The translations under genes and the position numbers were made by a program. Of a stretch of 34,757 nucleotides of DNA, positions 10,473-34,757 are shown piece after piece. Source of the DNA: a virus. Location of the stretch: IMG/VR virus record IMGVR_UViG_3300042449_000749, positions 1 through 34,757 of that record; one strand, given 5' to 3'. The notes under the pieces were generated by a model, which saw nothing but the letters and a program-made list of their open reading frames with translations, did no database searches and had not been told where the DNA came from. Numbering within the stretch: position 1 is the stretch's first letter; each line of letters starts with the position of its first letter.

Positions 10473-10503
10473 AGAAACAGTTAGTAAAACTGCATAGAAA
10501 TAG

Positions 10504-10521: not shown

Positions 10522-10559
10522 AATAATAGTACTATATAGATAGATAGTTGGTGCTTAGT

Positions 10560-11002: not shown

Positions 11003-11037
11003 CCCTTAGAAGCTTGAGGATGCCCTGTAACGAGAGA

Positions 11038-11076: not shown

Positions 11077-11093
11077 CAGTCCTTCTACGGGGC

Positions 11094-15439: not shown

Positions 15440-15443
15440 CAGA

Positions 15444-18184: not shown

Positions 18185-18194
18185 CAGATAACTC

Positions 18195-18479: not shown

Positions 18480-18481
18480 GA

Positions 18482-18871
18482 CTAGGCCGCGATTGGTGTG
18501 AAGGCAAGCGTGAGTGAGGTTAGCGACAAAGTGTCACCATTAATCACAGACTTGCTTGCAGTCAACGCAACAGACCACAGAAAGTTACCGGCAGTCGAAG
18601 CGTCATGCAGGCTAATGTGGCTAATCGTCTCAGTACCAGTCATAGCATAAGTGCCACCCATAGAAGTAAGAGCCATTGAACCAGCAGAAGCAGCACTAAA
18701 AGTGGCGGCATAACGAGTGGTAACAGCAGAAGCATTAGCAGTACCAGCAGACCCAGGGTCACCAGTGTGCAGCTGAACATACAGTGAACCAGCCGTGAAC
18801 GTGGTGCCCGTACGGCCAATCGTGTTAAGCAACTTGTTAGCCGTGTTAGCGGCGGAGAGACCAACGGTCAT
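18482..18871 (-). CDS. Small beta-rich structural protein (LHTGDPG type), 129 aa
   Basis: It contains SLYVQLHTGDPGSAGTANAS followed by TTRYAATFS, and ends SLTSLTLAFTPIAA. The YVxLHTxDPG...R pattern recurs in small phage tail or capsid-surface proteins with a jelly-roll look (from memory of such families). The ATG overlaps the 31-residue ORF upstream (ATGA). It probably decorates the tail or head. Precise place unknown. Confidence 0.7.
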   Translation of the reverse strand: MTVGLSAANTANKLLNTIGRTGTTFTAGSLYVQLHTGDPGSAGTANASAVTTRYAATFSAASAGSMALTSMGGTYAMTGTETISHISLHDASTAGNFLWSVALTASKSVINGDTLSLTSLTLAFTPIAA

Positions 18872-18963
18872 TTCGTTTCCTCATTCTCGGTAGTAGATGC
18901 AGCAGGTGTGATTTCCATTGTTGCCGTGGCAACCAGTTGAGCGATAACATTTTGTTCAGACAT
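18868..18963 (-). CDS. Small peptide, 31 aa
   Basis: The peptide MSEQNVIAQLVATATMEITP... ends ASTTENEETK. AAAGGAA lies 6 bases before the ATG, and the TGA overlaps the next ATG (ATGA), so it fits the operon tiling exactly. It is acidic at the end and uncharged at the start. Its first 30 bases including the ribosome-binding site are near-duplicates of a site at 20112-20140 before the upstream fibre gene. Function unknown; it may act mainly to couple translation. Confidence 0.55.
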   Translation of the reverse strand: MSEQNVIAQLVATATMEITPAASTTENEETK

Positions 18964-18975
18964 TTTGATTCCTTT
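18946..18975 (-). repeat. Duplicated gene-start element, copy 1
   Basis: Covers the ribosome-binding site, ATG and first codons of the 31-residue ORF. It matches copy 2 (20112-20140) at about 26 of 30 positions with one gap. Confidence 0.6.
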
Positions 18976-18994
18976 CATCGGCCATCACATACCC

Positions 18995-20080
18995 CTAAGC
19001 AGCGGTACCTGGAAGGGTAGCGGGCCAAGCGTCGGTCGTTGGGTAGTTGGTGTCAATGTAAACAGCATTGCCGTCAGCGATCCGGCTACGAACGTAAAGA
19101 GTTGTTGGTTCCATATTCACGACGTTCGTTTGGTCACGCCCAATGCCACGAGGTGCGGCTATAATCGTCTGGGCAGCACTTGGGCGGAAACCCGTTGGGA
19201 TAAGTGATGAGCCCACAGTGTCAGAGGTGGCCGAAGTGGCGTCCAAATACATCCCCAAATAAACTTCTTGGTTGACACGCCTCATACGGAAATAGCTTAC
19301 GTAATAGGCCCAACCGTTAGACAGCGAAGTAGCATTCAGGTTGCGCCAACCCGTGTCACCGTACTCAACTTTCCACCCCGTGTTGCCACTACCAGTGGCT
19401 TTGATCCAACGGATCGCACCATTAGTCGCTGCGGTGTCGGTGTACATGCTTCCGACAGGGGCGGTGACAACACCTTCGGGGAAACCTGTGCCGGTGATGA
19501 TGCTGACGTTACCTGCGGAACGGTCAAGGCGTAGGTGTGCGACGCCAGCGGTTGTTTCACCAATCCGATTCTCGCCAGTGCTTCGGATAATACTGAGCGA
19601 TGAGGTGGTTCCCAACTGTGCGCCCGAATCGTCATAGCGGATAATAGTAAAATCGCTTCCCGCGTTACTTCCCGACTCTGCGGTTTGATTCTTAGCAACA
19701 ATCCACCGAAGCGAACCACGCCGCTGAAATTGCATACCTACTGTGCGTTCAGCGCCCGTGTCGGAAGCGTTTGCAATAAAGTAACGGTTTGCTGACGAAC
19801 CATTCGCGTAGACGTTGTCCGTGAATGTTTTGATACCGGCAATGGTCTCAGTGCCAGCCTTATGAACAACGTCGCTGTCCACCGCAAGCGTATCAAGGCG
19901 GGCATCAACCGTTGCAGACCCACCCTGAGGGTTTGTTCCCAACGTGGCCTGAACAGCCTCAATAGCCTCAGCCTCTTTAGTATGAACAACATCATGTTCG
20001 AACCCAGCGGCATTTTCCAACGTCGATGCCGTTGGTTTCGCCAAAGAATCCAAACCGGTAGGGTATGAACTAGCCACCAT
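18995..20080 (-). CDS. Tail fibre or spike, 361 aa
   Basis: The N-terminal region HDVVHTKEAEAIEAVQATLG then NPQGGSATVDARLD is a pattern common at the virion-attachment end of actinophage fibres. A KTFTDNV-type shaft element follows. The middle carries EGVVTAPVGSMYTDTAATNG and GWRNLNA, as in many fibre tips. The end is a beta-rich receptor-binding domain (VYLGMYLDATSATSDTVG ... DTNYPTTDAWPATLP). AAGGAG lies just before the ATG. It is the first gene after the major capsid gene, unusually early for a fibre. Confidence 0.75.
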   Translation of the reverse strand: MVASSYPTGLDSLAKPTASTLENAAGFEHDVVHTKEAEAIEAVQATLGTNPQGGSATVDARLDTLAVDSDVVHKAGTETIAGIKTFTDNVYANGSSANRYFIANASDTGAERTVGMQFQRRGSLRWIVAKNQTAESGSNAGSDFTIIRYDDSGAQLGTTSSLSIIRSTGENRIGETTAGVAHLRLDRSAGNVSIITGTGFPEGVVTAPVGSMYTDTAATNGAIRWIKATGSGNTGWKVEYGDTGWRNLNATSLSNGWAYYVSYFRMRRVNQEVYLGMYLDATSATSDTVGSSLIPTGFRPSAAQTIIAAPRGIGRDQTNVVNMEPTTLYVRSRIADGNAVYIDTNYPTTDAWPATLPGTAA

Positions 20081-20129
20081 TTCTCCTTAAGGTTGATACT
20101 TGAATTACAAAAACATTCTGTTCAAACAT
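20070..20129 (-). pseudogene. Possible decayed copy of the 31-residue ORF
   Basis: A 19-codon frame, MFEQNVFVIQVSTLRRNGG, starts with the same MxEQNV as the 18868-18963 ORF and has a matching AAGGAAT ribosome-binding site, but then diverges and ends inside the fibre gene. It may be a remnant of a duplication or a short coupling peptide for the fibre. The rest of the 131-base gap (to 20211) holds a weak CCCCA/TGGGG hairpin near 20160-20181 and no gene I can support. Confidence 0.4.
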
Positions 20130-20140
20130 TTTATTCCTTA
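20112..20140 (-). repeat. Duplicated gene-start element, copy 2
   Basis: Second copy of the element at 18946-18975, upstream of the fibre gene starting at 20080. Confidence 0.6.
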
Positions 20141-20211
20141 CTTAGTAGAAGTGCAATGCCCCCCACCCACAATATGATGGGGAACAAAGCACAACCACTA
20201 AACAGCGATTA

Positions 20212-21171
20212 TTACGCAGTGATAGTTGAAGTGGTTTCGATGCGGAACAGGCTTTCCTCGCGGTAGCGAGCCCAACCGATCAAAGCCTTCCAACCCACAG
20301 GGCGGAAACGCATCAGCTTGTCAGTGACGGGGCCAACAACAACCTGTGGCTCGTAACCAACAGCCTCAGCAAGAGCCTGCTGACCCATCATAAGCGTACG
20401 GTGAACCTTCTTCGAAGAAGCACCATCAGCACCGATGTAGGTACGAGGCGACTCAATGAAGAACGCACCTTCGTAAACACCAAGCACGCCACCCCAGATG
20501 TCAGATGCACCTGAGTACTCGTGTGGTGAACGCCATCCAGCAGCACCGCTCTCGGCACGAAGGTCGTGCGAAACGTCGGGGTGGATGTAGCAACCGTACA
20601 GGCCATTAGCCAACGGCAGGGCGTTGTTGCCACGGAGCTTAGCAACCGTGTAGCGGACGTGTGCTGACGAGAAGTCGTCACCAGTGGTCAACAAGTTCAG
20701 TGCTTGCGTGCTGACAGCATCAGCGTCAGAACGAATCACGTTAGTACCGCCGATGAGCACGGTGCGAACCAACTGGTCAAGAGTGTCAACCTGGTTGTAC
20801 GCAATGATGTTTGCGATAGCAGGGTCAACATCTGACAAGGATTCGAACACAAGCTTGTCGGTGGTGAGGACGGAGTTACCGTACTCGTTGAGGGTAACGT
20901 CAACATAGGTGGTGTTGGCAAGTGCAACCGCGTCAGGATCTTCGTTCTCAGTCAACGCGGTGGTAGCAGCAGCAAGGTCAACATACCGTTGGAAACGAAC
21001 AGAGGCACCAGCATGGGATACATCAACCGGACGCTTAGTAGCGGCCTGACGGAACAACGGCTGACTACGCAGAGCGAACTCAACGTACTTGTCATAAGCG
21101 GTTGTTACGAGGTTGGTGATACCGTCCTGGGTCGTGCTAATATCGACTGTACCGGTATAGGTATTAGCCAT
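20212..21171 (-). CDS. Major capsid protein, N4-gp56-like, 319 aa
   Basis: The pattern of an HK97-fold N4-gp56-type capsid is visible. The N-arm is followed by an early helix (TTAYDKYVEFALRSQPLF), SVRFQRYVDLAAATTALTEN with the conserved Glu/Pro region (ENEDPDAVALANTTYVDVTL), and EYGNSVLTTDKL. A central helix-strand core follows (LRGNNALPLANGLYGCYIHP) and the end is GWARYREESLFRIETTSTIT. It forms the icosahedral shell with the scaffold encoded just upstream. AAAGG lies about 10 bases before the ATG. A 40-base gap separates it from the scaffold gene. Confidence 0.85.
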   Translation of the reverse strand: MANTYTGTVDISTTQDGITNLVTTAYDKYVEFALRSQPLFRQAATKRPVDVSHAGASVRFQRYVDLAAATTALTENEDPDAVALANTTYVDVTLNEYGNSVLTTDKLVFESLSDVDPAIANIIAYNQVDTLDQLVRTVLIGGTNVIRSDADAVSTQALNLLTTGDDFSSAHVRYTVAKLRGNNALPLANGLYGCYIHPDVSHDLRAESGAAGWRSPHEYSGASDIWGGVLGVYEGAFFIESPRTYIGADGASSKKVHRTLMMGQQALAEAVGYEPQVVVGPVTDKLMRFRPVGWKALIGWARYREESLFRIETTSTITA

Positions 21172-21213
21172 AATTCACAACCTTTCAAACAGACATTGGA
21201 TGGGTTAAAGCCA

Positions 21214-21729
21214 TCAGCGTCCAGTCAACAAACGATTCAATTCTTCGGGGGTAGCAGCGTTCTGGATCGCGGCCAGAGCAGCACCCTGAGAAGTCATAGG
21301 AGCAGATCCTTGACTGGTCTGACTGATGGTCGTAAAAGCATCAGCCTGCTGTTGCGAAACACCCACAGGTGGAGTGACCGTACCCGTTAGATCGAAAGGG
21401 TTTGAACCGGTGGGAGCCGGTGCTTCCTCATTAGATCCGCCAAGGTTAAGGTTAAAGACACTCGCGTTTTCAACGAGCCAATCATTAACCGACGATTCAT
21501 CAGCCACATCAGATGGAATGAACTTAGCAATAGCAGGATTGATACCGTTACTATTCAGGACTTCCTTCAACGTACGCTCACGAGAGGACTTTTGAAGCGA
21601 AGCAAGTTGTTCTTCCAACTGCTTACGTTCCTTCTGTTCCTTCTTGAGTGCATCACGCAAAGCCTTCGGGCCGTCGCCGTCATCGCCATACGTTTCATCG
21701 TCGAACTCGTTCCATTGGTTGTTGCTCAT
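21214..21729 (-). CDS. Capsid scaffolding protein, 171 aa
   Basis: Acidic N-terminus (NEFDDETYGDDGDGPKALRD), a strong coiled coil at about residues 22-55 (LKKEQKERKQLEEQLASLQK), a short folded part (NGINPAIAKFIPSDVADESS), then a Gln/Ser/Thr-rich linker and a small helical end (AAIQNAATPEELNRLLTGR). This is the classic layout of scaffolds that guide procapsid assembly, and it is directly upstream of the capsid gene. GGGAGA lies 8 bases before the ATG. Confidence 0.85.
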   Translation of the reverse strand: MSNNQWNEFDDETYGDDGDGPKALRDALKKEQKERKQLEEQLASLQKSSRERTLKEVLNSNGINPAIAKFIPSDVADESSVNDWLVENASVFNLNLGGSNEEAPAPTGSNPFDLTGTVTPPVGVSQQQADAFTTISQTSQGSAPMTSQGAALAAIQNAATPEELNRLLTGR

Positions 21730-21951
21730 CGCAACGTCTCCCTTACTTGTTATGGTTTACGCAACCCTCAACCACCGCAGGGGAAGGGTGATTGGCTGTT
21801 ACTACCGGTCTCTCATACTCTCCGCAGGGCCGGTAGGTCTGCGAGAGGCTTATGGGGCTGTCGGCTTGCGCCACGTTCAGCCAGGTGTTACTGTGTACTC
21901 AAGAAGCAGGTAGCACTTGGTGGGGAAGCCCGGTGTTACCTGCTTTAATTC
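21730..21951 (-). promoter_or_regulatory. Structured non-coding leader before scaffold and capsid genes
   Basis: This 222-base stretch is the longest gene-free interval in the window. Three stems are visible. AAGCAGGTA/TACCTGCTT (21904-21912 with 21937-21945) can extend by CAC/GTG. CTCTCCGCAG/CTGCGAGAG pairs 21818-21827 with 21839-21847. CTACCGG/CCGGTAG pairs 21802-21808 with 21830-21836. The last two share bases and exclude each other. The first is followed on the leftward transcript by CTTCTT, a weak U-tract. Attenuation, RNA processing or a promoter for the highly expressed capsid genes are possibilities. No tRNA-like T-loop is seen. Confidence 0.5.
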
Positions 21952-22935
21952 TTAAAGGGACTTATTGTCCTGGGCCAGGGAACCAGCACGGATACCAGAG
22001 GAACCACTGAACGCGGCACGTTCCTTACTGGCAAGCTTCTTCTTAGTGGTCTCAGCCTTAGCCGCACCAGCCAAACCAAAGGTTTCCTGGGTTGCTTCCT
22101 GAATACCATACTGGTCGCCGTAGATACTTGACAACCTTTCACCACGAACACCAAGTTGTTGTGCCTCAGCGAATCCTTGCGCTGCCTGCGTGTAAGTAAT
22201 GTCTGGTGTTGCAGTAGCGATCTGTTCGGCCAGACTCGTTTGAACACCCTGGTCTTTAGCGGCACCACCAACAGTTGCGGTGGCGACACGCTTCTGGATA
22301 ATTGGTTCAGCAACCTTGGGGTCAAGGAAACCAGCAATCAGATCTCCCGAACTAATGCCGTACATTCTAACGTACTCGTCACGCACCGATGCGGGCGATG
22401 AGTACACGACTTGTGCTGCACTGGCCACTCGGTCAGTTAATTCTTTTGCCGAGATTGCGTTACCAATAATACCAGCAAGGTAATCTTTGGTTTGCATTTC
22501 CTTAGGGATACCATAGTAGCCCATTGATTCACGCATAGAATCTTCAACGGAAATGTATTGGGCTGGGCTATAAGTATTAAAACCCTTGTCCCTCAAGCCC
22601 TTGTTACCAGCAAATCTTTTCTGGTAAGCCTCGGTATCGCGCAACTTCAAATCAAGTGCATCACCGGAGTACCCCTTGACCAGAAGATCAAAAAGTTCTT
22701 TAGCAAGTGTTCCACTTGGATCATCAATGCCGTAAGAACGGAACTGGGACTGCATATCCTCGTAGTAGTTTTGATCTTTAGCCGTTAGAGTAAGTGCTGG
22801 TGGCTTCTTGCCCTGGTTAGCGTTACTTCTGGCATAAGCCAAGAATGTCTCACTGATACCAGCTTTACTGCCCGTACCTGGATTGGTGTAATTAAAGTAG
22901 TCAAGCCACGCCTGAACTTCTGCTGATTCAGCCAC
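21952..22935 (-). CDS. Putative internal virion protein C, 327 aa
   Basis: GTG start overlapping the previous stop by 8 bases. Mostly helical: LDYFNYTNPGTGSKAGISET, ELFDLLVKGYSGDALDLKLR, RDEYVRMYGISSGDLIAGFL then ALP/Ala-rich helices (IQKRVATATVGGAAKDQG, AAQGFAEAQQLGVRGERL). A basic, Ala-rich end (AETTKKKLASKERAAFSG) closes it. The region ending SSGDLIAGFLDPKVAEPI recalls phage proteins encoded with giant ejection proteins. It forms a block with the two genes upstream and the 1834-residue protein, probably packaged in the head. No catalytic motif seen. Confidence 0.55.
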   Translation of the reverse strand: MAESAEVQAWLDYFNYTNPGTGSKAGISETFLAYARSNANQGKKPPALTLTAKDQNYYEDMQSQFRSYGIDDPSGTLAKELFDLLVKGYSGDALDLKLRDTEAYQKRFAGNKGLRDKGFNTYSPAQYISVEDSMRESMGYYGIPKEMQTKDYLAGIIGNAISAKELTDRVASAAQVVYSSPASVRDEYVRMYGISSGDLIAGFLDPKVAEPIIQKRVATATVGGAAKDQGVQTSLAEQIATATPDITYTQAAQGFAEAQQLGVRGERLSSIYGDQYGIQEATQETFGLAGAAKAETTKKKLASKERAAFSGSSGIRAGSLAQDNKSL

Positions 22936-24127
22936 CGAAACCCCAAGACTTTAAGATCCCCGCAGTTGCGCTAGAGAAAGTTTCACGAGCATTATTTGTT
23001 TTCAACCAACGCTCATCCTTGCGGATATCATTTTCAAACTGCCACAACGACTTAGCCTGAGCTTTGCCGTTCTCAGGGTTTCGACCAGAAAGTGCTTCAC
23101 GGATCTGGCTGTCAAACAAGTCAATACCACCAGGGTCAACCTCAAGCAAAGCACTCATACGTTGAATGTATGGTGAAGCAATGTCGGCCACGTTCTGGCC
23201 GGACTTGATCTGCTCGGCATAAACAGGGAAAGCAGAAGCGGCCTGCATACGAATGGTGTTCTCGTAGTCCTGGATCGTGCTCTTACCAGCAATGATTGAC
23301 CGTGAAGCGTTGTTGAACCAGTCGCCGTTGTACTGCATACCGTTGGCACGAGCCAACTCTTTCAAGTCTTGTGCGTTCTTCCCAGCCTGACCACCAAGAA
23401 CACCATCCTTGACAAAGATGTAGCGCGATAGGAGAGTGTTAAGTTGCTGTGGATTGTAGCCTTGCCGGTAGTAAGCATTAACAACTTTAGTTAAAGTTGC
23501 TTCGCTAAGCGTTGCACCAAGGGCCGAAGCCGTGGTGGAAACTTCGGCTTTAGCAGCGTTCCATTCTGTTTGATACGTTTTAGGATCAGTTAAACGTAGT
23601 GCTTCTGTGGTTCTCCACTTTTCACTATTGTTCTTGTAGTACTTGGTGCTTCTAAACCGTGCAATAAATTGTTCTTTAGAATAATCCCCAGCGATAGCTT
23701 TGTCGAACAACGCACTGATCTCTTTGTTTGATCGTAGAACAGCGGAAGCAAAACCATACAACTCCGCAAGTTCAGTAGGATCAAGCTTGTCCTTTGGGGG
23801 GACACGATCCATACCAGCACCAGTGGCAGAAACGCGTGAACCACCACCACCCATTGAACCACCAGTTGAACCACCAGTTGAAACTGGAGTCCCATACTCA
23901 GTCATGTTCAACCAGTCAATACCAGCCTGCGTGTTAGTTAAGTCAGGGGTAAGGACAGGTGCAACAGCAGCCTTCTTCTTTTTGGCAGCATCAGCAGCTT
24001 TACGCTTGCGTACATTAGCCGCAATGAGTTGGTCAATATCAGCATCGTTAGCCACCGCTTTCACGGGTGCAGGTCGTGGGCCTGAAAGGCTTCCTGGTTG
24101 CGTTTGCTTCGGGGGAGTGAGTGCCAT
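22928..24127 (-). CDS. Putative internal virion protein B, 399 aa
   Basis: The first about 110 residues are basic and Pro/Ala/Gly-rich (NVRKRKAADAAKKKKAAVAP, then a GGSTGGSMGGGGS run) and probably disordered. The rest is helical: DPTELAELYGFASAVLRSNK, ISALFDKAIAGDYSKEQFIA, NAYYRQGYNPQQLNTLLSRY, DYENTIRMQAASAFPVYAEQ. A basic disordered start plus a helical body would suit a DNA-associated core or ejection protein. TAATG joins it to the upstream gene. No family recognised with confidence. Confidence 0.55.
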   Translation of the reverse strand: MALTPPKQTQPGSLSGPRPAPVKAVANDADIDQLIAANVRKRKAADAAKKKKAAVAPVLTPDLTNTQAGIDWLNMTEYGTPVSTGGSTGGSMGGGGSRVSATGAGMDRVPPKDKLDPTELAELYGFASAVLRSNKEISALFDKAIAGDYSKEQFIARFRSTKYYKNNSEKWRTTEALRLTDPKTYQTEWNAAKAEVSTTASALGATLSEATLTKVVNAYYRQGYNPQQLNTLLSRYIFVKDGVLGGQAGKNAQDLKELARANGMQYNGDWFNNASRSIIAGKSTIQDYENTIRMQAASAFPVYAEQIKSGQNVADIASPYIQRMSALLEVDPGGIDLFDSQIREALSGRNPENGKAQAKSLWQFENDIRKDERWLKTNNARETFSSATAGILKSWGFGG

Positions 24128-24990
24128 TATGTATTCACCGGACTCTGAATAGCTTGGAACATTGCGTCCATGTAGGTTGTTGCTGCCTGATACTCAGCAT
24201 AGTCGTCTGCTGAACGGGCAAAATCAAGGGCGTACTGATCGCGTTGCATACCACCAGTTTGAACAGTGCTCGTATTATCAGAACTGTAAACACCAGTAAC
24301 ATTTGTAGTGGTTCCGGACGCATCGGTAGCTTCTGTTCCCTGCCTTGCATTAGTCCTCGTACCGGTCGTACGAGAAACAACAGCGTTAGATTGTTCCATC
24401 TGGTTCAATGCTTCACGGAAATTAGCAATCTCATCATTGGTTGGTGCCCTACCGACGGCTTTAGCCATCTGCGCCTCAAGATAATAACGGGCCGTTTGTG
24501 CAGAAGAAAGATCCACCTTAACATTTGTGTCGTTAACATTTTCTACAGTTGTCGTCTTAAAACGGTTCGCTTCACTAGCGCCACCATTCGATGCACCAAG
24601 TTCATCAATGGCATCCCAAGGAGTAATCTTGCGACCACCCTTAACATAGGAGTCACTAGCCCAGTTAACAGCAGTCTGCCAAGCCCGCCGAAGTTTTTGA
24701 TTATCAGATACATCTAGTCCAACATCAGAAAACCTTTTACGGTATTCTTCCAACAGTTGTGGGTTTGATAGAACACTTGAAAGGAAGTAGCCGTCGGCTT
24801 CATCCGAAGTAAAAGTTTTATCCACGCCTGGGCCGATTGGCACACCAAGAGCAATACCAACCTTTTGGGAAGTGGAGTATTCTTCTATTGGTGTGGTTCC
24901 CCAATAAACCAAAGGCGATGCTGATGACGGGTTTGCTACTCCACCGCTTATACCATTATAATTTTTGATGTCTGGCTCATCGTCAGGCAT
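24127..24990 (-). CDS. Putative internal virion protein A, 287 aa
   Basis: Acidic start (MPDDEPDIKNYNGISGG), helical centre (LLEEYRKRFSDVGLDVSDNQ, LRRAWQTAVNWASDSYVKGG, ARYYLEAQMAKAVGRAPTND), then a Thr/Ser-rich linker (TTTNVTGVYSSDNTSTVQTG) and a short helical end (YAEYQAATTYMDAMFQAIQS). It shares TAATG with the giant gene upstream and with the next gene downstream, so the four are co-translated. Somewhat AT-rich compared with flanking genes. Function not recognised; structural by context. Confidence 0.55.
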   Translation of the reverse strand: MPDDEPDIKNYNGISGGVANPSSASPLVYWGTTPIEEYSTSQKVGIALGVPIGPGVDKTFTSDEADGYFLSSVLSNPQLLEEYRKRFSDVGLDVSDNQKLRRAWQTAVNWASDSYVKGGRKITPWDAIDELGASNGGASEANRFKTTTVENVNDTNVKVDLSSAQTARYYLEAQMAKAVGRAPTNDEIANFREALNQMEQSNAVVSRTTGTRTNARQGTEATDASGTTTNVTGVYSSDNTSTVQTGGMQRDQYALDFARSADDYAEYQAATTYMDAMFQAIQSPVNT

Positions 24991-27900
24991 TACGCAGCAC
25001 CTACCTGTTGTTGTTGGGTTAGTTGTTCGATTCTACCAAACTCACCATCAAAGTAACGGGTAAAAAGTTCGGAAGCACGAGGCGACTGGCGGTTAAGCCA
25101 AGCCACATAATCAGTGTAGAAAGCAGCAAGATCGCTATTAGATGCAGAAGTCAAAGTAGCTGAACCACCCCCGGCCTGTCGTGAAGCAAGTTCCTGCTTC
25201 AACTCCTCACGAGTTGTCAAGTAAGAACCAATGGCCTTCCAAGCAGCATCGTTCTTCTTGTCACCAGAAAACTTAGGATCTTCCAAAGCACGACTGAAAG
25301 CCTGAGCATTAGCATTGAACTGGTTCTCATCACGCTGACTATAAGAAACAAACCAAGCAGGATTATTTCGTTGAGCCCAAGCCAACCAATCACGGCGATA
25401 AGACTGCAAACCCTCAGCACCATTAGCACTGAAAGACTTCAAACCCTTAGAAGCAAGCAAAGCTTTAGTCTTATTATCCATAGCAATGAAATCATCCCAG
25501 CCCTTAGCAATGTAAGGTTGGTCTGCTGCTTCCTTCGGAGACCTCTGCGAACGGTAATCAACATCAATACCTGGGGTAACCTGCCGATTTGTCTGCCAAG
25601 CACCAGTGTACTGGTCGAAAGAAGTGTCATCAGGGTTATTCAGCAAAGCCCCAAGCACACCAGGATCAACACCAGGGATCGCAAGCACCGAAGAAATGGT
25701 GGAGCCGTAACGCTCAGCGTTTTTACGAGCAGACCTAGTTGATGTTACACCAGTAGTGTTTTCCGAAGTGGAGAAACCAAAAGCAAAATACTCTGGAAAG
25801 TCTTTACGGTAACGCTCAGCTGCCGTTACACCCTCAATCGTACCCTGCTGTTGGTACTGTCGCCACTTGTCAACGTACTGTTGGTACTCCGGCTTGATAC
25901 CGAACTGCGGTGAAGCGGGAAGAATAAGGTTAGCAAACGTACGCATAACATAGAAACGATCAGTCTCGTTCTTTACACGTTCAAGAAGATCTTTCGGTGG
26001 TTCGATACCTTGTTGTTGCAGTTCAAACCTACGCTGTTGGTACAACATGGTAAAGTCACGCGAGTAATCTGATGCGTTTTCTTTCATGTACAGTGACAAA
26101 GCCCTACGCATCCACGCCGGAGTAATCAGATCTGCTGAACCACGGGTTGTTGATACACCAGTAGTTAAAGTAACTTCACCAAGTAGGCGTGTTGCCGCGT
26201 TATCGTCAATCTTAATGGCCTCAGATATGGGTATCTGAACAAGTGGGCCAACACCAGGGGTGAAAATCGTTTCACCCTGGAAAACCACGTTCAAAGATTT
26301 AAGGTTGAAGCGCATTGTTTCGTGACCCTTAAGACCAGGGATCTTATCTGCAACACCAGTGGGTACCTGGAGTTGTAATGACCACTCCTTTGACGGCAAA
26401 CGACCATCAAACTCAACAGGAACACCATTCTCGTCAACAACCCAACCAGCACGGATAGGGGCTGTGATTACTTGGTAGGCACGGGCCGCAACAGAAGGGT
26501 CATTCAACATGATTCGACCCCATGTACGGGTAGTGTTTTCCCAAGCCGCAAAGAACGGTGAAACAAACCGAAGATACTCGGCACCACGAGTGTAACGATC
26601 AATGGTGTACAAGGTTCGCTTCACTTCACGCAACGAATACTCACGGGCCGAACGGCTCAAAGCTTGCAGTTCAGCGTTACTCATATCTTTCCCACCCTGA
26701 GCAACAGCATCATCAATGGCTTGACGCATATACTGGTTGTAACGCACGTTCACAAATGGGTGACGGAGCAAAGTGTCCTCAGGCAAGGAACCGATGTACT
26801 TGAAGATTCGGTCGCGTTGACGAGCGAGAGCCTTCTTAGTTCCTGGTTCCTTAATGGTGTCCATGATTTCTTTACCATGAATGGGTTGCCAGCGTTTCCA
26901 TTCCCCACCCTTAGTTGCAACAGTGTACGGGTTGCCATCGGCACCACGAACAGTAGCAACATTCCAGTCAACCTGACCCTCAGGGAAAGCACCACCGTAC
27001 GCTCCACCACCCTGAGTTGAAGCCTCAGCATCAGCCCTATTCAGTGGAACATCAACATCACGGTAAGCAGTACCTGGGCCATCAAGAGGCTTAACGCTAG
27101 TCTTTGCTATTGGCCTAACAGGTTGACCGATACCCTCGGATGGGGGATTGTTCTTAAAGTAAGCGTTTGCTTTTTTCTCATCAGCAAAAGACTTCTCAAC
27201 ACGTTGACCATTTCTGAAAGTAATAACCTTGAACGTGCCATCATAAATTTTTCTTACACCAGACTCGGCCTTCGTCGCCATCAACTCAGCTTGTGTTGCA
27301 TAAACCTTACGCTCAGCACTCTTTAGAGGCTTACCCGTAATTGCGGCAGCACGATTCTGTCTTGCAAGAATCTCATCGTACTCTGCCTCAAGCTTACGGA
27401 TCTTCTCGCCATACTTAGCGGCCCTTGGGGCGCCAACGTCTTGAAGTTGCTTGAGTATAACATTTTGCTTCTCAATGCTTGCACTGTTCTTTTGCAGAAT
27501 CTGAATTACTTTTTGTTCACGATTAAAGTAGTCACGACGCTTAGCCCGACTAAGTGAACTGAAACCTTCACCGTTACGGATCTCGCGGATACTACGCAAT
27601 TCATCGGTGTACTTAGTTTTGTTTGCTTCAAGTTTTTTTACGTCAGCAAAAACATAGCCCTTGCGTTCCGAAGTTGTTACACGCTCATAATAGTCTTTTA
27701 GTTGACCGTCAATCTTTGCAAGGCGGGCGTCAACGGCTGGATTGTCAAGAAACTTCTGGGCACCTTGAAGGGTCTTTGCATCAACCTGAACAAAACCAGT
27801 CTTAGACATAGCCTTGCTAATGTCATCTGGTGTTAGGTCGCGTAAGGCAGCGTTTAGACGCAACTCGGCATCTGGAAGGTAACGCTCAACAACATCGGCA

Positions 27901-30494
27901 ACATTTCGAACAGTCATGCTCATGTTGCTATTAAGCTTTAATCCAAGTTCCCCACGAACATACGCAGCCTGTGGGTCAACCGGATCATTCAACCACTTAG
28001 CGATATCTTTCTCACTATCACCGCGAATGACACGCTGATACAGGTAAGAGTTACGGAACTGAGTGTTAACAACATCAGCTAAAGCAGTAACGTAGTTTCC
28101 GTCAGACGGGTTGACGCGGGTTGGAACCTTCGCCCTAACCTGACCAGATGAAAGACCAGTTACCATTTGACCAGGGCCACCGAGGGTGGCCTGTGTCGTT
28201 CTTTCAGAAGAACTAAGTTCACGCAAGTAACGACCACCAGTACCAACAAAGGTGTCGTCGTAGTCCACGCCTTTGTAAGACTTTACACCAGCACCGATCC
28301 GGTACTTGCCCTCTTTAAGATAATCTTCAATAACTAATTGGCGGTTTCTGTGAACCATATCAAGCTCACTGGTCACCTCATCCAACGTGCCAATAGATGA
28401 TAGGTCAACCTTTTCCCCACGAGCAACAGCCGAAGCGTCAATACCACGGATCTGGAGACGGGCAGCGATGTGCCCCTGCAACTCATCAATCAAGTCTTGC
28501 GTTTCCTGGTCAATGTCTTTACCAAACTGCTTGGCAATGAAACCATTCTTACGGTTCTTGGCAAAGTTGCGGACACCAGGGATAAGTTGATCCGCAGCCA
28601 TCATCGCATTAGTCACGGAAGCGAACCGGAACCAACCTTCACTGACGTTTCGAACAGGGTAACCTAAACGGAACAGAACAGCCGGTCGCCACACGGAGTT
28701 AAAAGCTTCGTAAGCGTAGGTCGCTTTTTCGCCAGCACTCCTAGCCCCAAGTTGGGGGCCAGAAAGTCCCTCAGCGGCGTTGCGCATCGCGCTATCCACT
28801 TCTTTCCAGTTAAGCATAACGTAAGTGTCTGGCGTTTGAGTTTCAAGGAAAGGGGCAATGTTGATATCGCCACCCTCATCAACCCATGTTGCTTTGCCAT
28901 CTTTGAGCACTTGCTGAACGGAACCGTTTTTGTTGCTAACAATAAAGTCTTTGACCATATCAATAGTGGCTTGATCTGTGATGCCATACTTTTTGGCGAT
29001 TAACTCAACACCCTCTTTTTCGATCTTCTCAAGTATGGCGTTCTGTGCGCCTGTGTTAGGTGCGTTAAGGAAATAATTAACGCGGGCCAAGCTTTCTTCA
29101 CCAGTAAACAAATCACGAAGGGGGCCACTGCGTAGGTTTGCCTGCAACTCAACAGCACCATCAGATGCGTTAGCCCCTTGTAAATTAAAAATACCAGTGG
29201 CACTACCCTGGTTGTATGCGGAACCGACGGCTTGTTGTAGGCGGGGAGCCCTGCTCCATACGTTAACCTTGCGAGCGCCTTCGCCAACATAAAAGGTTTG
29301 TGGAACAATAGTTTCATCAACACCGAACGCCGCGCGGGTTTTTGCCTCAGCCCTTTCAAAAGCACTACGCTGTCTGGCCATAGCTGCATCTTGACCAAAC
29401 CTAGTTAAACCTTGAGCTGTTCCAATACTCAAGTCCTGACCCTTAGTGGCCCTTACCGCAACATTGGTTCGAGCGGTAGCAATAGCGTTTGCAAGAAACT
29501 CGTCACGATAAAGAAGTCCATCGTATTCTTTTTGAATAGCATCATCCCAGTTAGGCGACATTGGGTATCCGCTAACTTTTGCAAAACCAAACATACTTCT
29601 ATTGGCTTCAATTTCTCTAGCCAGAACAGTTTTAGTTTTAGCAAGTTCATCAATGGCCTGTTTGTTTCCGCGCGAAGCCATCCAGATTAGTGCAGTTTCC
29701 GATTCACTGGTTGACTGAGAAAAAGCACTAGCAAGTTGTGGGTTAGTTCCTTTAAGAAAATTATTGATAGTGGTTACGTCGCCAGTTTTAGTTAACCACT
29801 TGATAGTTTCCCAAGCAGTACCAGTTTTTTCCGCAATCTGCTCAGTCTCTTTGGCAATGCTCTGATTACTACGGGCGTACTTAACTTCCTTTGTAACCTG
29901 ACCTAAACGGTTCAGGGGGTCAAGATACCAGTTGAACGCAAGGTCTGAACCACCAGAAACAACATTGGCGGCCCAGTTGTTTTCAAAGTCTTTTAGACGT
30001 TGACGTTGCTTAATCGCGGCATTAACCTGCTCGCGTGCAGAAGAATCATTCTTATCGCCAATGTAGTTATTGAAACCGGCAACAATTTCCTGACCCGGGG
30101 AAACATACTCAGAAGCGTTCCACAAGTTACCAAGTTCACCTAAACTACTACCGGTTAAACGCTCGCGGCCAGGGTCAATGGCCATCATCGCTGTTGTCAG
30201 TGGGCGAGATACACCGTAACGGTAAGGAAGCGCAACAGATTCAAGTGCCCGTCCCTGCGCGGCTTCATACTTAGTTGCAACAGAAGAAACAAATGGGTCA
30301 CTTGATTTAGCAACAGCCTCAGATGCCGAGGCACGGATAGGTTCAATTCCCTTAAAAATGTCAATGGCCGAACCAATACCAACACTGCCCTGCATTAAGG
30401 GTTGGGTGAATCGAGTTAAGTCGGATGTTTGGAAACCGTCGCCACCAGTAACCTTATTGTAAAGGCTGTCCTTAAAATCCTGCCACAAACTCAC
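24990..30494 (-). CDS. Giant virion protein (probable ejection or internal protein), 1834 aa
   Basis: GTG start in a GTGA overlap. Long helical stretches dominate. Recognisable blocks are FNWYLDPLNRLGQVTKEVKY (about residue 190), RPAVLFRLGYPVRNVSEGWF (about 600), a charged coiled-coil zone (about 930-1080), and RGAEYLRFVSPFFAAWENTT (about 1300), which resembles the PFFxA region of large polyvalent-protein associated domains. The tail is Gln-rich (RIEQLTQQQQVGAA). No lysozyme, protease or ADP-ribosyltransferase motif is evident. At this size it equals a tape measure or the T7 gp16-type core protein. Lack of tail-tube genes favours an ejected internal protein. Its place between portal and scaffold is unusual. 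Confidence 0.65.
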   Translation of the reverse strand: MSLWQDFKDSLYNKVTGGDGFQTSDLTRFTQPLMQGSVGIGSAIDIFKGIEPIRASASEAVAKSSDPFVSSVATKYEAAQGRALESVALPYRYGVSRPLTTAMMAIDPGRERLTGSSLGELGNLWNASEYVSPGQEIVAGFNNYIGDKNDSSAREQVNAAIKQRQRLKDFENNWAANVVSGGSDLAFNWYLDPLNRLGQVTKEVKYARSNQSIAKETEQIAEKTGTAWETIKWLTKTGDVTTINNFLKGTNPQLASAFSQSTSESETALIWMASRGNKQAIDELAKTKTVLAREIEANRSMFGFAKVSGYPMSPNWDDAIQKEYDGLLYRDEFLANAIATARTNVAVRATKGQDLSIGTAQGLTRFGQDAAMARQRSAFERAEAKTRAAFGVDETIVPQTFYVGEGARKVNVWSRAPRLQQAVGSAYNQGSATGIFNLQGANASDGAVELQANLRSGPLRDLFTGEESLARVNYFLNAPNTGAQNAILEKIEKEGVELIAKKYGITDQATIDMVKDFIVSNKNGSVQQVLKDGKATWVDEGGDINIAPFLETQTPDTYVMLNWKEVDSAMRNAAEGLSGPQLGARSAGEKATYAYEAFNSVWRPAVLFRLGYPVRNVSEGWFRFASVTNAMMAADQLIPGVRNFAKNRKNGFIAKQFGKDIDQETQDLIDELQGHIAARLQIRGIDASAVARGEKVDLSSIGTLDEVTSELDMVHRNRQLVIEDYLKEGKYRIGAGVKSYKGVDYDDTFVGTGGRYLRELSSSERTTQATLGGPGQMVTGLSSGQVRAKVPTRVNPSDGNYVTALADVVNTQFRNSYLYQRVIRGDSEKDIAKWLNDPVDPQAAYVRGELGLKLNSNMSMTVRNVADVVERYLPDAELRLNAALRDLTPDDISKAMSKTGFVQVDAKTLQGAQKFLDNPAVDARLAKIDGQLKDYYERVTTSERKGYVFADVKKLEANKTKYTDELRSIREIRNGEGFSSLSRAKRRDYFNREQKVIQILQKNSASIEKQNVILKQLQDVGAPRAAKYGEKIRKLEAEYDEILARQNRAAAITGKPLKSAERKVYATQAELMATKAESGVRKIYDGTFKVITFRNGQRVEKSFADEKKANAYFKNNPPSEGIGQPVRPIAKTSVKPLDGPGTAYRDVDVPLNRADAEASTQGGGAYGGAFPEGQVDWNVATVRGADGNPYTVATKGGEWKRWQPIHGKEIMDTIKEPGTKKALARQRDRIFKYIGSLPEDTLLRHPFVNVRYNQYMRQAIDDAVAQGGKDMSNAELQALSRSAREYSLREVKRTLYTIDRYTRGAEYLRFVSPFFAAWENTTRTWGRIMLNDPSVAARAYQVITAPIRAGWVVDENGVPVEFDGRLPSKEWSLQLQVPTGVADKIPGLKGHETMRFNLKSLNVVFQGETIFTPGVGPLVQIPISEAIKIDDNAATRLLGEVTLTTGVSTTRGSADLITPAWMRRALSLYMKENASDYSRDFTMLYQQRRFELQQQGIEPPKDLLERVKNETDRFYVMRTFANLILPASPQFGIKPEYQQYVDKWRQYQQQGTIEGVTAAERYRKDFPEYFAFGFSTSENTTGVTSTRSARKNAERYGSTISSVLAIPGVDPGVLGALLNNPDDTSFDQYTGAWQTNRQVTPGIDVDYRSQRSPKEAADQPYIAKGWDDFIAMDNKTKALLASKGLKSFSANGAEGLQSYRRDWLAWAQRNNPAWFVSYSQRDENQFNANAQAFSRALEDPKFSGDKKNDAAWKAIGSYLTTREELKQELASRQAGGGSATLTSASNSDLAAFYTDYVAWLNRQSPRASELFTRYFDGEFGRIEQLTQQQQVGAA

Positions 30495-30652
30495 TTAGGC
30501 TGACCCCCAACCAGGAGCATAGCAAAATCGCGGTGGTCTTGATCCGGCATGGGTGCGCCAGCAAGATCCCACGCCGTACCAGCTTCACCAATACCAACAG
30601 CGTCCAAGTACATACCCAGACGATCCCAGAAACTCATGGAGTTATTGTCCAT
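30491..30652 (-). CDS. Small hypothetical protein, 53 aa
   Basis: The protein MDNNSMSFWDRLGMYLDAVG... continues with WDLAGAPMPDQDHRDF and ends VGGQPK. The ATG at 30652 has GGGGT about 8 bases upstream; an ATG at 30637 is an alternative, while longer starts fall deep within the upstream gene. It overlaps the upstream stop by 11 bases and the giant gene by GTGA. No family recognised. Possibly a small head protein. Confidence 0.6.
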   Translation of the reverse strand: MDNNSMSFWDRLGMYLDAVGIGEAGTAWDLAGAPMPDQDHRDFAMLLVGGQPK

Positions 30653-31130
30653 TTGAGATACCCCGCAAATACTGTGCAAGCATTTTGATCTGCTGACCAG
30701 AATCAGGTGTTTCAGCCTGACGCATGATGGCCGGAAGGTACTTCAAAAGTCGTTGTGCATCCTCGTTTGACGAAGGCAAACCTAAAGCCTCAGTACCTGG
30801 GCCTGGGCCCAGTGCTGCTCCAGCAGTGACGGGTTCATCGGGGCGCTCAGTTGGGTCTGTGAGGGGCGTAACGCCCTGACCTGGGGTCATAGGCGCAGAA
30901 GGGGGGGTCATGCCGTTAGAAGGCATCGTAGGGCTTCCTGTGGGCATAGAGCCTTGAGCCATCTGAGCACCACCCTGAATATCACGCATCTCTTGACGCT
31001 CGCCATAATAGGCGGCAGGAACTTCACGAACAGGTTGACCAGGGCCACCATCAGTACGTTGCGACAGCGACCCCGGCCCTGAAACAGGAGCAGGATTGCT
31101 AGGCTTTCTGTAACCACCTTGCTCTGCCAT
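30642..31130 (-). CDS. Pro/Gly/Met-rich virion-region protein, 162 aa
   Basis: Residues 1-115 are disordered and rich in Pro, Gly, Met and Ser (SNPAPVSGPGSLSQRTDGGP, MPTGSPTMPSNGMTPPSAP). The last 40 residues form helices (DAQRLLKYLPAIMRQAETPD, IKMLAQYLRGI). The composition closely resembles the portal's C-terminal tail, suggesting related or interacting proteins. GAGGTG precedes the ATG. Role unknown; an accessory head or scaffold-like part is possible. Confidence 0.6.
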   Translation of the reverse strand: MAEQGGYRKPSNPAPVSGPGSLSQRTDGGPGQPVREVPAAYYGERQEMRDIQGGAQMAQGSMPTGSPTMPSNGMTPPSAPMTPGQGVTPLTDPTERPDEPVTAGAALGPGPGTEALGLPSSNEDAQRLLKYLPAIMRQAETPDSGQQIKMLAQYLRGISNGQ

Positions 31131-31158
31131 GTTTCACCTCAATCAAAATAGAACTAAT

Positions 31159-31260
31159 TTAGTAAACCTTGCCCTTGCGAACCGGCTTAGCCTTAACAGG
31201 CTTACCAGCCTTGAACGGCTTGGGCTTGCGGACGGGCTTCACAGGCCCCATCCCTGGCAC
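31159..31260 (-). CDS. Very basic Pro/Lys-rich peptide, 33 aa
   Basis: GTG start sharing one base with the previous stop (TAGTG). Of 33 residues 13 are Lys or Arg, arranged as PVRKPKPFKAGKPVKAKP repeats, with no acidic residue. It looks like a short histone-tail-like DNA-binding peptide and could neutralise packaged DNA or interact with the portal tail. The Lys/Pro pattern recalls the endolysin linker (KPKPKPKP). Too short for firm family assignment. Confidence 0.6.
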   Translation of the reverse strand: MPGMGPVKPVRKPKPFKAGKPVKAKPVRKGKVY

Positions 31261-31439
31261 TACTTAACCTTACGCTTGTCGTTGTTACCAACACCAGGAA
31301 CCTGAACCCCAGCCTGAGTTACGCTTGGGCCAGACGCACTACGATCCGTGTCAGTAGCCATACCTGCCTTGATTGGCTCTGCCGTATTAACCGGAGCAGC
31401 AGTGCCCTGAGAGCCGAAACTCGGCATCTTCTTAGCCAT
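31260..31439 (-). CDS. Small hypothetical protein, 59 aa
   Basis: The protein MAKKMPSFGSQGTAAPVNTA... has a basic end (NNDKRKVK) and appears largely disordered. TAGGAAA lies about 6 bases before the ATG, 17 bases after the portal stop. Its TAG overlaps the next GTG by one base. With the 33-residue basic peptide it fills the interval between portal and the P/G-rich gene. No family recognised. Confidence 0.6.
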   Translation of the reverse strand: MAKKMPSFGSQGTAAPVNTAEPIKAGMATDTDRSASGPSVTQAGVQVPGVGNNDKRKVK

Positions 31440-31456
31440 ATTGTTTTCCTATCTTG

Positions 31457-33328
31457 TTACGCCGGTTGGCGGCGGACAACGCTAGCCGAAAGGTTCGGTG
31501 CGCCGGAAGCAGACAACCCAGCAAGGAGAGTCTGCATATCTGGACGACCACCAGGAGCCATACCCGCTTGACCAGGTGCAACACCCTGCGGGAGTCCAGT
31601 TTCTTGCATACCAGGTGGCATACCAGAAGGTGTCCCCTCAGGGGCAGGCATACCGGGAGAGCCAAGTTCGTTAGGCATCTGCTGACCGGCTACACCTGCT
31701 TCCGTCTGAGGGGAAGGCGGTGGTGGTGGCGGAGCAAAAGCATCCGCAATCGCAGTCTCAATCGGAGTGCCGTTCTTACGGGCTTCAATGATTGAGGCAA
31801 GCTTAGTAACAACATCAGTGGGGTCTTGCCCCTGGGCAGCCATAGCAGGAATGGACTGCACATAAGCAGCAACACCCTGGAACCCTGCTTCACGCAAACG
31901 CTCCACGTCAATGAGTTCTTCCTCAGTCTTAACATTCATTGAGTTAGGCAAGTTGCGTCGAACAAACGACTTGGAAACAAGGTCAGCACCCAAAGCCTGC
32001 AACGACCAAACCAATGCGCGGTTAGGATCAAGACCAGCCATCAAACCGTAAGTTACCTCAACACCAGTCTCAGTTCCAATGTCGCGCTGAGGAACATACT
32101 TGATGGTGTAAGGATTACCATTCTGCTGTCCCTTGATTTCCTTGCTATCAAGGGGGAACAACATGGTGTCAAGTTCGAAACACATTTGTATAACTTCAAC
32201 AAACGTGTCAGCAAGAACGTCCTGTGCGGTTTTGATTTGGGTGTCAAAGCCACCCATGAGTGCTTGTACGCCGCGACCTGTGATGATGCTTGCGTCAATG
32301 TTTCCTTGGCGGCCTTCGGGGTAGCGTGCCCCGTTTCGCATTTCTTGGTCTAGGGATTGTGCTTGGGCGAACGCGGATTGTGGCATTTCGATTGGCGCAC
32401 GTCGCACGTTTTGTGGTTCACGGGTGCGGATGATTGCGTCCCCACCGATGGGGAAGTGTTGGATATCCGATGGTACGAACAGTGGGGCTTCAACAGCTTT
32501 GTGGGCTGCTTCAAGTGAGAGTAGCGCAAACTTCGCACGAGCCATCTGTACCCAAAGCACATCATCAAATTGTCCACGTTGTTGACCGTCGAAGGAAGGT
32601 TTGCGGGCCACCACAACAGGACAACGCCCTAGTGGGTTGTTTGTTTGTGCGAGGATCAGGTTTGCTCGTTCGGGGACGAACATGATTTCTTGCTTGTCAT
32701 CCACCCAACGAACCACTTCAAGCATTGTGTCACCGGGGGTGTACTGGCCCTGGTTCTTGTTTTTTAGCTTGTCGGCGTACTCAGGGAACATTGCACAAAG
32801 TTCAGATGTGGGTTTTAGGAAGCGTCGTGCGAAAGCGGTGCAGTTCCCCCAACGGTCGAACTCTGGGTACGAACCCATTGGATCTTCAACCGTGATGTGT
32901 GGTCGGCGGTCTTTGAAGTTTGGCTCAACACGGAAAGGTAGGAAACCGTAAGTGACGTATTGGTCTGCACCAGCATACATTTCGCGGCCAAGCTTCGAGG
33001 CGGATATGTAGTGGTTGGCAATGATGGTGCGCTTGTCGGCTTTGGTTCGTTTATTGTCGTCGGTCATGTTGTTTTGTGAACATGAGAACGTGGGCAGTGG
33101 TGCGATTACTTCTGAAAGGTCACGGGCAACGGTGTCAATGAAGTTGGCAACAATTGGCTTGGGCCATTCCGATGGGAACAAACCTGGAAAGGCTTCTTCG
33201 TAGTTGCCCCCACGAACCGAGGCAACCTTATTCATTCGGCCATCGCGTTCAGCGTAACGAGACTTGAGCACGTCAAAGCGTCGGCGGATATCGCTCTCCG
33301 CGTATTGTGCCATTGTCGCATCAGCCAT
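31457..33328 (-). CDS. Portal protein, 623 aa
   Basis: The core (residues about 20-480) shows a portal pattern: an N-terminal helical region (IRRRFDVLKSRYAERDGRMN), GFLPFRVEPNFKDRRPHITV and VEDPMGSYPEFDRWGN wing strands, and NLILAQTNNPLGRCPVVVA. A long stem/crown helical part follows with GRGVQALMGGFDTQIKTAQD. The last about 110 residues are Pro/Gly/Met-rich (AFAPPPPPPSPQTEAG) and probably disordered. It forms the ring through which DNA is packaged and ejected. The terminase stop overlaps its ATG (TAATG), the standard packaging order. Confidence 0.82.
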   Translation of the reverse strand: MADATMAQYAESDIRRRFDVLKSRYAERDGRMNKVASVRGGNYEEAFPGLFPSEWPKPIVANFIDTVARDLSEVIAPLPTFSCSQNNMTDDNKRTKADKRTIIANHYISASKLGREMYAGADQYVTYGFLPFRVEPNFKDRRPHITVEDPMGSYPEFDRWGNCTAFARRFLKPTSELCAMFPEYADKLKNKNQGQYTPGDTMLEVVRWVDDKQEIMFVPERANLILAQTNNPLGRCPVVVARKPSFDGQQRGQFDDVLWVQMARAKFALLSLEAAHKAVEAPLFVPSDIQHFPIGGDAIIRTREPQNVRRAPIEMPQSAFAQAQSLDQEMRNGARYPEGRQGNIDASIITGRGVQALMGGFDTQIKTAQDVLADTFVEVIQMCFELDTMLFPLDSKEIKGQQNGNPYTIKYVPQRDIGTETGVEVTYGLMAGLDPNRALVWSLQALGADLVSKSFVRRNLPNSMNVKTEEELIDVERLREAGFQGVAAYVQSIPAMAAQGQDPTDVVTKLASIIEARKNGTPIETAIADAFAPPPPPPSPQTEAGVAGQQMPNELGSPGMPAPEGTPSGMPPGMQETGLPQGVAPGQAGMAPGGRPDMQTLLAGLSASGAPNLSASVVRRQPA

Positions 33329-34757
33329 TAGATCACCATTTCATTTCGGGTTGCCGCCCACTCGTTCAAGTCAATAACCGCTCGTTGACTCATGCTCCGT
33401 GGAGACGAGTAAGGGTTCTTTGTGAACCAGTTCATATCACTGGTTGTTTGCCCAATGATTGCCCTGGCTGAAAGTTCGCAGAACCACAACGCCATCACAA
33501 GGTCAGTCTTGTTACGGGTCTTGGGTTGCCACGAAACCAGTTGCTCAACTAGGGCCTTCAAACCCTCAGTGCCTTCAACGAGGGGAAGTTCGATAAGGTT
33601 GTCACCCATTGATCGGGCGACACGGTTCTTATCACTAGCAGTTTCGATAGTGCCGAACAGGGTTGACATACTTGCCACACCAAAACCCTCATCCCACTTG
33701 TTGATGCGGGACGTGTAGTGGGGTTTGATAACGCAACCACGGGCGTTCAAATACTTGTTCAAGTTTTCGTCGTGAACCAGATACAACTGGAAAGCGTTGG
33801 ATTCAATGACCCATTCCTGCGGACGGTACCTATCCGTCCAAGAAGTAACAAGGTCATAAATCTTGGATGGGGTGGCACCACTCATGCGGGCCGCGTCAAG
33901 GATGTAACGCTTACCCGACTGACGATCCACTGCCATAGCAATAGCGGCAGTGTCTTTGTCAGCTGCGGGGTCTAGCCCGCAAATAATGTAGAAACCTTCA
34001 GGGTTGGCGGGGTGCCCAGCGGCCTGCCCGTTCAGTGGCCCCACTTTACGCATACCGTTTACGCTTCCGCGAACAGCAGCAGGGTGGAAGATTGCGTCCT
34101 CAGAAACATCTTGTTGCTGGTAAACCATAGACCAGATGCGGGGGCCAACAGCGCCACGCACGTTGTCAAGGTGGGGGCCATCCCAGCGACGGAACAAACC
34201 ATCCTCGTCAGGCTCTTCACCCTCAGACCCCTCGAAAGGAACCTCGGCCTTAGGCCACAAGGTCAACCAGTCCTCAGAGTTACCGCCACCATAATCCAAC
34301 ACAGCGGGTTGTGAGAAACGCGTCCAAGGTGACGTACCAGAAACGTAGTGGTCACCGTTCATAAGTTGTTGATACAGGTCAATGGGCGCAACGCGCGTAC
34401 CAATAACCAGCAGTTTGCCCGTGGGGGCCAGTCGGGAGCTAACTTCAATACGAAGCCAGTCCATGTGCTTTTCCCACTCAGCCGCGTTAGCCAACACCAC
34501 TGCGTCATCAATAATAATTAGGTCAGCACGGGCACCATAGATCTGCCCACCAATACCAATGGCCTGAACCGTTGGATCTTTCTCCTGACCATCCCGCTCC
34601 TCACCACCCAAATAGATTTGGTTGGCAGTCCACGAGTCAGCAGTTTTCTTAAAACCACCCTCAGGGCTAAAGTTGGCTTGCAACTTCGCGTACGCTGGGT
34701 GTGTTAGTCGCTGCTTGATACCGTACAAGAACTGTTGCGCCATCTTCTGTGTCTTAG
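33328..34757 (-). CDS. terL: Terminase large subunit (5' part missing at window edge)
   Basis: The frame is open to the window edge, beyond the first visible ATG at 34743, so the gene is partial; Walker A would lie outside. Walker B is ARADLIIIDDAVVL. A motor-domain motif LLVIGTRVAP follows. The nuclease domain begins with FYIICGLDPAADKDTAAIAM (first Asp), continues with QEWVIESNAFQ (Glu) and ends with KTDLVMALWFCE (second Asp). It pumps DNA into the head through the portal and cuts unit genomes. The small subunit is not in the window and may lie just beyond its right edge. Confidence 0.9.
   Translation of the reverse strand, partial: KTQKMAQQFLYGIKQRLTHPAYAKLQANFSPEGGFKKTADSWTANQIYLGGEERDGQEKDPTVQAIGIGGQIYGARADLIIIDDAVVLANAAEWEKHMDWLRIEVSSRLAPTGKLLVIGTRVAPIDLYQQLMNGDHYVSGTSPWTRFSQPAVLDYGGGNSEDWLTLWPKAEVPFEGSEGEEPDEDGLFRRWDGPHLDNVRGAVGPRIWSMVYQQQDVSEDAIFHPAAVRGSVNGMRKVGPLNGQAAGHPANPEGFYIICGLDPAADKDTAAIAMAVDRQSGKRYILDAARMSGATPSKIYDLVTSWTDRYRPQEWVIESNAFQLYLVHDENLNKYLNARGCVIKPHYTSRINKWDEGFGVASMSTLFGTIETASDKNRVARSMGDNLIELPLVEGTEGLKALVEQLVSWQPKTRNKTDLVMALWFCELSARAIIGQTTSDMNWFTKNPYSSPRSMSQRAVIDLNEWAATRNEMVI

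Follow-up and report, generated by a model that had tools for sequence, protein, structure and literature searches.

The window analysed here is the whole of a linear viral contig of 34,757 bases (IMG/VR record IMGVR_UViG_3300042449_000749), which is incomplete, with terL cut at its edge. Its minus strand carries, in the order of transcription, terL, a portal gene (623 residues), a gene for a 162-residue protein, a gene for a giant protein of 1834 residues and genes for three companions of 287, 399 and 327 residues. The last of these is followed by a probable scaffold gene (171 residues), the capsid gene (319 residues), fibre-like and other late genes, and an endolysin-like gene. We were concerned with the block made up of the giant gene and its three companions, at positions 21952–30494, as a likely cassette of ejection proteins.

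Gene layout of the block

The giant gene (24990–30494, minus strand, GTG start) encodes a cysteine-free protein with a pI (isoelectric point) of about 9, which matches phrog_10618 (4.8e-72) and has orthologues at the same place in related loci. Its C-terminal conserved region, residues 1227–1834 (24990–26816, minus strand), was aligned over 57 sequences (alignment A11). Companion 1 (287 residues, 24127–24990, minus strand) also lacks cysteine, matches phrog_13037 (1.5e-12) and is optional in the family. Companion 2 (399 residues, 22928–24127, minus strand) and companion 3 (327 residues, 21952–22935, minus strand, GTG start, cysteine-free) are distant relatives of one another. The genes are joined by one-base TAATG overlaps at 24990 and 24127 and by an eight-base overlap at 22928–22935. 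A preliminary description of this DNA had reported four such coupled open reading frames between the portal and the scaffold and capsid genes, and they are present as it stated.

The block does lie between portal and scaffold, as the preliminary description had it, but the gene for the Pro/Gly-rich 162-residue protein (30642–31130, minus strand; phrog_8200, 1.2e-21) also lies between portal and block, 147 bases from the giant gene; this protein is probably an accessory part of the cassette. The portal gene itself is at 31457–33328 (minus strand; phrog_104, 3.9e-20). On the other side, 222 bases separate the 327-residue gene from the 171-residue gene (21214–21729, minus strand), whose product is probably the scaffold, judging from its position and from weak matches to PF14265 (E 0.0018, below the cut-off) and to the unnamed phrog_7813. 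The major capsid protein gene follows (20212–21171, minus strand; PF13252, 1.1e-17; phrog_1357, 5.2e-71). Promoters and terminators were in no excess over shuffled sequences in window positions 18000–34757.

Conserved position and exchange as a unit

Profile searches over fetched loci gave 117 relative loci with both portal and capsid genes. In all 117 the block was in the same place, in the order portal, 162, giant, (287), 399 (one or two copies), 327, scaffold and major capsid protein, although in a few the giant was split into several open reading frames or one small gene was undetected, and some loci overlap on a single contig, so that the number of phages is overstated. Since homologues occur in the same order across these loci, the gene order is more than chance. 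The block had previously been taken as an insertion in this genome, on the ground that portal, scaffold and capsid genes are usually adjacent. That adjacency is seen in T7, P22 and Bacillus phage Page, a capsid relative, but the position found here is standard in the family and is thus a trait of the lineage. The insertion idea is therefore replaced by that of a conserved position with exchangeable content. Searches of bacterial genomes with alignments A4 or A2 found no copies.

The giant, 399-residue and capsid proteins match those of Streptomyces podophages of the Beephvirinae, and the best matches of the capsid are Planktophila phages recorded as ct2KA10; Planktophila phages have been cultured. 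A WhiB-type gene in the window (650–1054, plus strand; PF02467, 9.5e-8) fits an actinobacterial host, the same argument as has been made for related phages (PMC10202952). For one of the giant-carrying Streptomyces podophages, Abafar, transmission electron microscopy showed a virion of podoviral type, its tail 16 nm long (PMC11536984), and from this relative the window phage, too, is predicted to be short-tailed. In the Beephvirinae Immanuel3 (gp9–gp13) and Manuel (gp10–gp14), homologous genes stand between portal and scaffold/capsid in the same order as in the window; in these phages a tRNA array separates the cassette from the scaffold gene, whereas no tRNA genes were found in the window. Beephvirinae records label the proteins hypothetical, peptidase, glycosylase or minor tail protein, never ejection proteins.

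The content of the block differed sharply between close relatives. Planktophila phages E7 and F5 (LanE43AprE7 and AprF5), which infect one host strain, are ~96–98% identical over long stretches on both sides of E7 positions 8372–16922 (L004), yet from early in the 162-residue gene up to the final nine bases of the 327 homologue the two have no nucleotide match. An 8-kb island has been described in these phages, with three and four hypothetical proteins that have no homologues in the other phage of the pair (PMC10202952). Profiles nevertheless revealed diverged versions of the same cassette in both: the E7 stretch that F5 does not share has genes matching the giant, companion-2 and 327 profiles, the F5 genes match the giant and companion-2 profiles, and a 482-residue neighbour in F5 matches the E7 327 type at 26%. 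The cassette accounts for the published island (L004 8372–16922; L252), which has been replaced whole between two phages that share a host strain. The E7 capsid protein (L004 17567–18766; 399 residues) has ~80 extra residues near 250–335 relative to the 319-residue window capsid.

In the window, the stretch 22391–30468 is exchanged relative to a close relative (L012). Nucleotide identity is 88.8% before this stretch, mostly ~0.4–0.65 inside it and 89.4% after it, with similarity falling near 30468 and returning near 22391. The corresponding proteins are 96% (portal), 94% (scaffold) and 96% (capsid) identical, as against 44% (giant), 52% (399) and 55% (327), and the window giant shares only 20% identity with that of another locus (L091). 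Of 69 pairs of loci in which portal and capsid exceed 85% identity, 39 had giants less than 60% identical, some of them undetectable by BLASTP; the pairs are not independent of one another, and a few compare stretches of a single contig. Breakpoints recurred in or just after the 162-residue gene, which in the window contains or borders the upstream one, and, at the other end, in the 3′ portion of the 327 gene, whose C-terminal part remains on the capsid side. The ejection (E) proteins of P22 are likewise highly diverse; gp16 and gp20 of Sf6 are functional in P22 only when both are supplied, complete sets of E-proteins from other phages do work, and the HK620 set escapes SieA exclusion (PMC10883804). 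By analogy, escape from superinfection exclusion or host defence is a possible motive for exchange of the cassette.

Wall hydrolases and cysteine depletion

Many relatives of companion 2 are fused to peptidoglycan hydrolases. Immanuel3 gp11 and gp12 are both homologous to the 399-residue protein, and their N-termini match NLPC_P60 (3.6e-30) and SLT (2.5e-5), respectively. Among 90 diverse companion-2 proteins, hydrolase matches were to NLPC_P60 (17), SLT (12), SLT_3 (6), Peptidase_C92 (4) and Phage_lysozyme2 (1), where the same protein can be counted under several families. The window protein keeps the helical domain, residues 110–399, and has a low-complexity N-terminus where relatives have the enzyme. 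The Beephvirinae set includes a pair of companion-2 genes, of which one bears NlpC/P60 and the other SLT, whereas the window has a single enzyme-less copy. In NC_048686 (12251–14865) and homologues labelled peptidase, glycosylase or minor tail protein, the enzyme makes up the N-terminal part only. A 219-residue protein encoded elsewhere in the window (1222–1881, plus strand) has a possible signal anchor and a C-terminus that is transglycosylase-like by eye, with no relevant Pfam match; it could be the source of the wall enzyme missing from the 399-residue protein.

All three companions had been described as helical. This holds for the 399-residue protein, the only companion modelled, which was predicted to be all-helical with a predicted local distance difference test score (pLDDT) of about 97 over most of residues 110–399. 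The 327-residue family is distantly related to this domain (hhalign P 4e-7, probability 93%). Residues 1227–1834 of the giant were also modelled as mostly helical (pLDDT 73).

The block proteins contain no cysteine in 2847 residues, where 22 would be expected from the other window proteins (54 in 6914 residues; P about 2e-10). The same depletion was found in the families, counted on redundancy-reduced relatives: 7 cysteines in 137,785 residues of giants (0.05 per 1000), 1 in 18,836 for the 287 family (0.05 per 1000), none in 31,732 for the 327 family, none in the C-terminal 285 residues of companion 2 over 104 sequences, and 1 in 8,416 for the 162-residue family. For comparison, the portal, terL, capsid and g631 proteins have 6.1, 8.8, 2.1 and 5.2 per 1000. 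Cysteine alone is so depleted among the residues (log2 −5.7; next residue −0.5), and companion-2 cysteines occur only in the N-terminal part, the site of the NlpC/P60 enzymes. Established ejection proteins gave similar counts, with none in 2065 residues of T7 gp15 and gp16 (T7 gp14 has one), none in 1309 residues of P22 gp7, gp20 and gp16, and none in 4294 residues of N4 gp50, gp51 and gp52. Most other T7, P22 and N4 proteins have many cysteines, and some capsid or scaffold proteins have none. Lack of cysteine may be tied to unfolded passage through the tail. A literature search found no paper on cysteine absence in ejection proteins.

These results bear on whether the block proteins leave the virion. 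Its genes adjoin those of portal and scaffold, as would be expected of static head-core or assembly proteins that are kept in the head and never ejected. Hydrolase fusions, however, need contact with peptidoglycan, the unit is exchanged without change in capsid or portal, and scaffold and capsid are less depleted in cysteine, so that we consider a purely static role most improbable.

The giant protein and the ejection reading

One relative's giant (L019 3650–8866) contains an ADP-ribosyltransferase domain (PF03496, 5.4e-17) at residues 229–385, with intact-looking YR, STS and EQE motifs. It sits after the conserved N-terminal module, at a point equivalent to residues 221–224 or so of the window giant, and its PHROG matches include an Alt-like family. 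The Alt protein of T4 is injected from the head. Another giant (L079 4673–10702), unusually long at 2009 residues, has a SAP domain at residues 320–349. The ADP-ribosyltransferase points to an ejection cassette. Together with the SAP domain and the strong variability of the cassette, it would also suit a delivered anti-host island, in which the giant carries cytoplasmic effectors, the companions help with packaging and wall penetration, and a DNA conduit is of minor importance. We think this unlikely as the main role, however, as just 2 of the 53 giants scanned had a clearly recognised extra domain, the core is conserved in giants that lack one, and the cassette is in every locus with portal and capsid, as for an essential part.

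Other identities for the giant were also examined. A two-barrel (YonO/crAss) virion RNA polymerase was rejected, as the DxDGD motif was absent from all 187 family giants. The preliminary description had noted a polyvalent-domain-like segment near residue 1300 as support for transfer into the host. No Pfam LPD domain was found in the window giant or in 52 others, and alignment of the giant with LPD38 by hhalign was limited to the PFF..W.RI segment, residues 1310–1381 (26352–26567, minus strand), and was not significant (P 0.0086, probability 4.7%). A large polyvalent protein of the LPD38 type is thus not supported. A sequence search of the PDB with alignments A6 and A8 gave no match, and a match of alignment A7 to a stretch of Wzc (E 0.0015) was taken as a coincidental coiled coil. 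The significant rows from the Foldseek viral library pointed to no function: they were a Streptomyces relative, uncultured phages and entries with no name.

Conserved gene order, cysteine depletion, hydrolase fusions, replacement as a unit and a podoviral relative together make it very probable that the block encodes the ejection proteins of a short-tailed actinobacterial phage. The apparatus carried in the head that the preliminary description had envisaged is thus well supported by independent, indirect lines, while its polyvalent-domain and insertion arguments fall away. The function class is known; among records and papers on relatives the family has apparently not been recognised as an ejection set before, and our literature search found no virion proteomics of Beephvirinae. 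We give even weight for and against to a broader proposal, that actinobacterial podophages have an ejection system of their own, not recognised before, which has no sequence relationship to those of T7, P22 and N4 and serves to breach a thick cell wall; that its parts are self-matched and exchanged whole between co-occurring phages of one host; that its giant can take up effector domains; and that near absence of cysteine may be a general mark of proteins that exit through a phage tail.

Several observations weigh against an ejection cassette. Pfam recognises no enzyme in the window copy of companion 2. The modelled regions had no significant fold match in the PDB by Foldseek/VIA, a weak negative; a row for the cyanophage A4 pre-ejectosome (Z 4.4) was not above unrelated rows. 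Alignment by hhalign with single T7, P22 and N4 ejection-protein sequences gave P values of 0.06–0.83, the same as negative controls, in what is a weak test. Membrane-type helices had been suggested as a feature to look for, but the block proteins have few hydrophobic segments long enough to form one, and membrane insertion is not predicted. Finally, the tape measure protein of lambda, gpH, is also free of cysteine (0 in 853 residues), and the absence of cysteine therefore marks tail-passing proteins, not ejection proteins alone.

The last point bears on the alternative that the preliminary description had set against an ejection apparatus, namely that the giant is the tail tape measure of a long-tailed virion. 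Like gpH the giant is long, helical and cysteine-free, and annotations call companion-2 homologues minor tail proteins. The hydrolase fusions count for this alternative as well, since wall hydrolases are also carried by tape measure and tail proteins. At 1.5 Å per residue, however, 1834 residues would correspond to a tail of about 275 nm, far from the 16 nm of Abafar; the downstream window genes gave no tube or tape-measure match, and the giant gene sits between portal and scaffold. It therefore appears very improbable that the giant is a tape measure.

If the block does encode ejection proteins, these would be packaged in the head near the portal, docking perhaps through the 162-residue protein and the C-terminal part of the 327-residue protein, the two ends that are left with the conserved flanks at exchange. 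On adsorption they would exit, loosely folded, through the short tail. Companion-2 proteins bearing a hydrolase, where present, would open the thick cell wall, and the giant would come next, either entering the cytoplasm or forming a bridge to it; it would guide the DNA and at times deliver an effector domain. The parts would have to match each other more than the capsid, and the cassette would accordingly move as one allelic unit. The window phage may have lost the fused hydrolase, or its lineage may never have had one; some other virion protein, or a domain not recognised as an enzyme, would then have to open the wall.

The proposed cassette resembles known systems in composition, without detected homology. 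The cysteine-free proteins gp7, gp20 and gp16 of P22 are highly diverse and exchangeable as a set, and gp16 and gp20 must match each other, but their genes follow the tail genes, the hosts are Gram-negative and there is no wall hydrolase fusion. T7 gp14, gp15 and gp16 likewise comprise one very large protein and smaller partners, gp15 and gp16 being cysteine-free; the T7 genes also follow the tail genes, and the wall hydrolase is on the largest protein, gp16, whereas here it is on a companion. In N4 the giant cysteine-free gp50 is delivered with two smaller partners, gp51 and gp52, but gp50 is an RNA polymerase, and the searches detected neither a polymerase domain nor gp50 homology in the giant family. 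The LPD38 giant of Bacillus phage Page (gp20) is cysteine-free and accompanies a related capsid and a podovirus-type portal, as here; its gene follows the tail genes, and LPD38 giants have no significant homology to the block.

The podophages for which a review describes ejection proteins are listed there as infecting Gram-negative bacteria; the review states that phi29-like phages, whose hosts are Gram-positive, have none (PMC8954989). If the reading as an ejection cassette is correct, podophages of Streptomyces and of freshwater actinobacteria, with their conserved, hydrolase-bearing cassette, would offer tractable systems in which to study the passage of a short-tailed phage through a thick wall. 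It would also give a functional reading to phrog_10618, 13037, 6654, 8424 and 8200, and suggests that the current glycosylase and minor tail labels are likely to mislead. The cysteine signature would provide a cheap test for ejection cassettes that lack homology to known ones. Outside the late genes, the window encodes a C-5 cytosine DNA methyltransferase (8398–9840, minus strand; PF00145, 2.4e-66).

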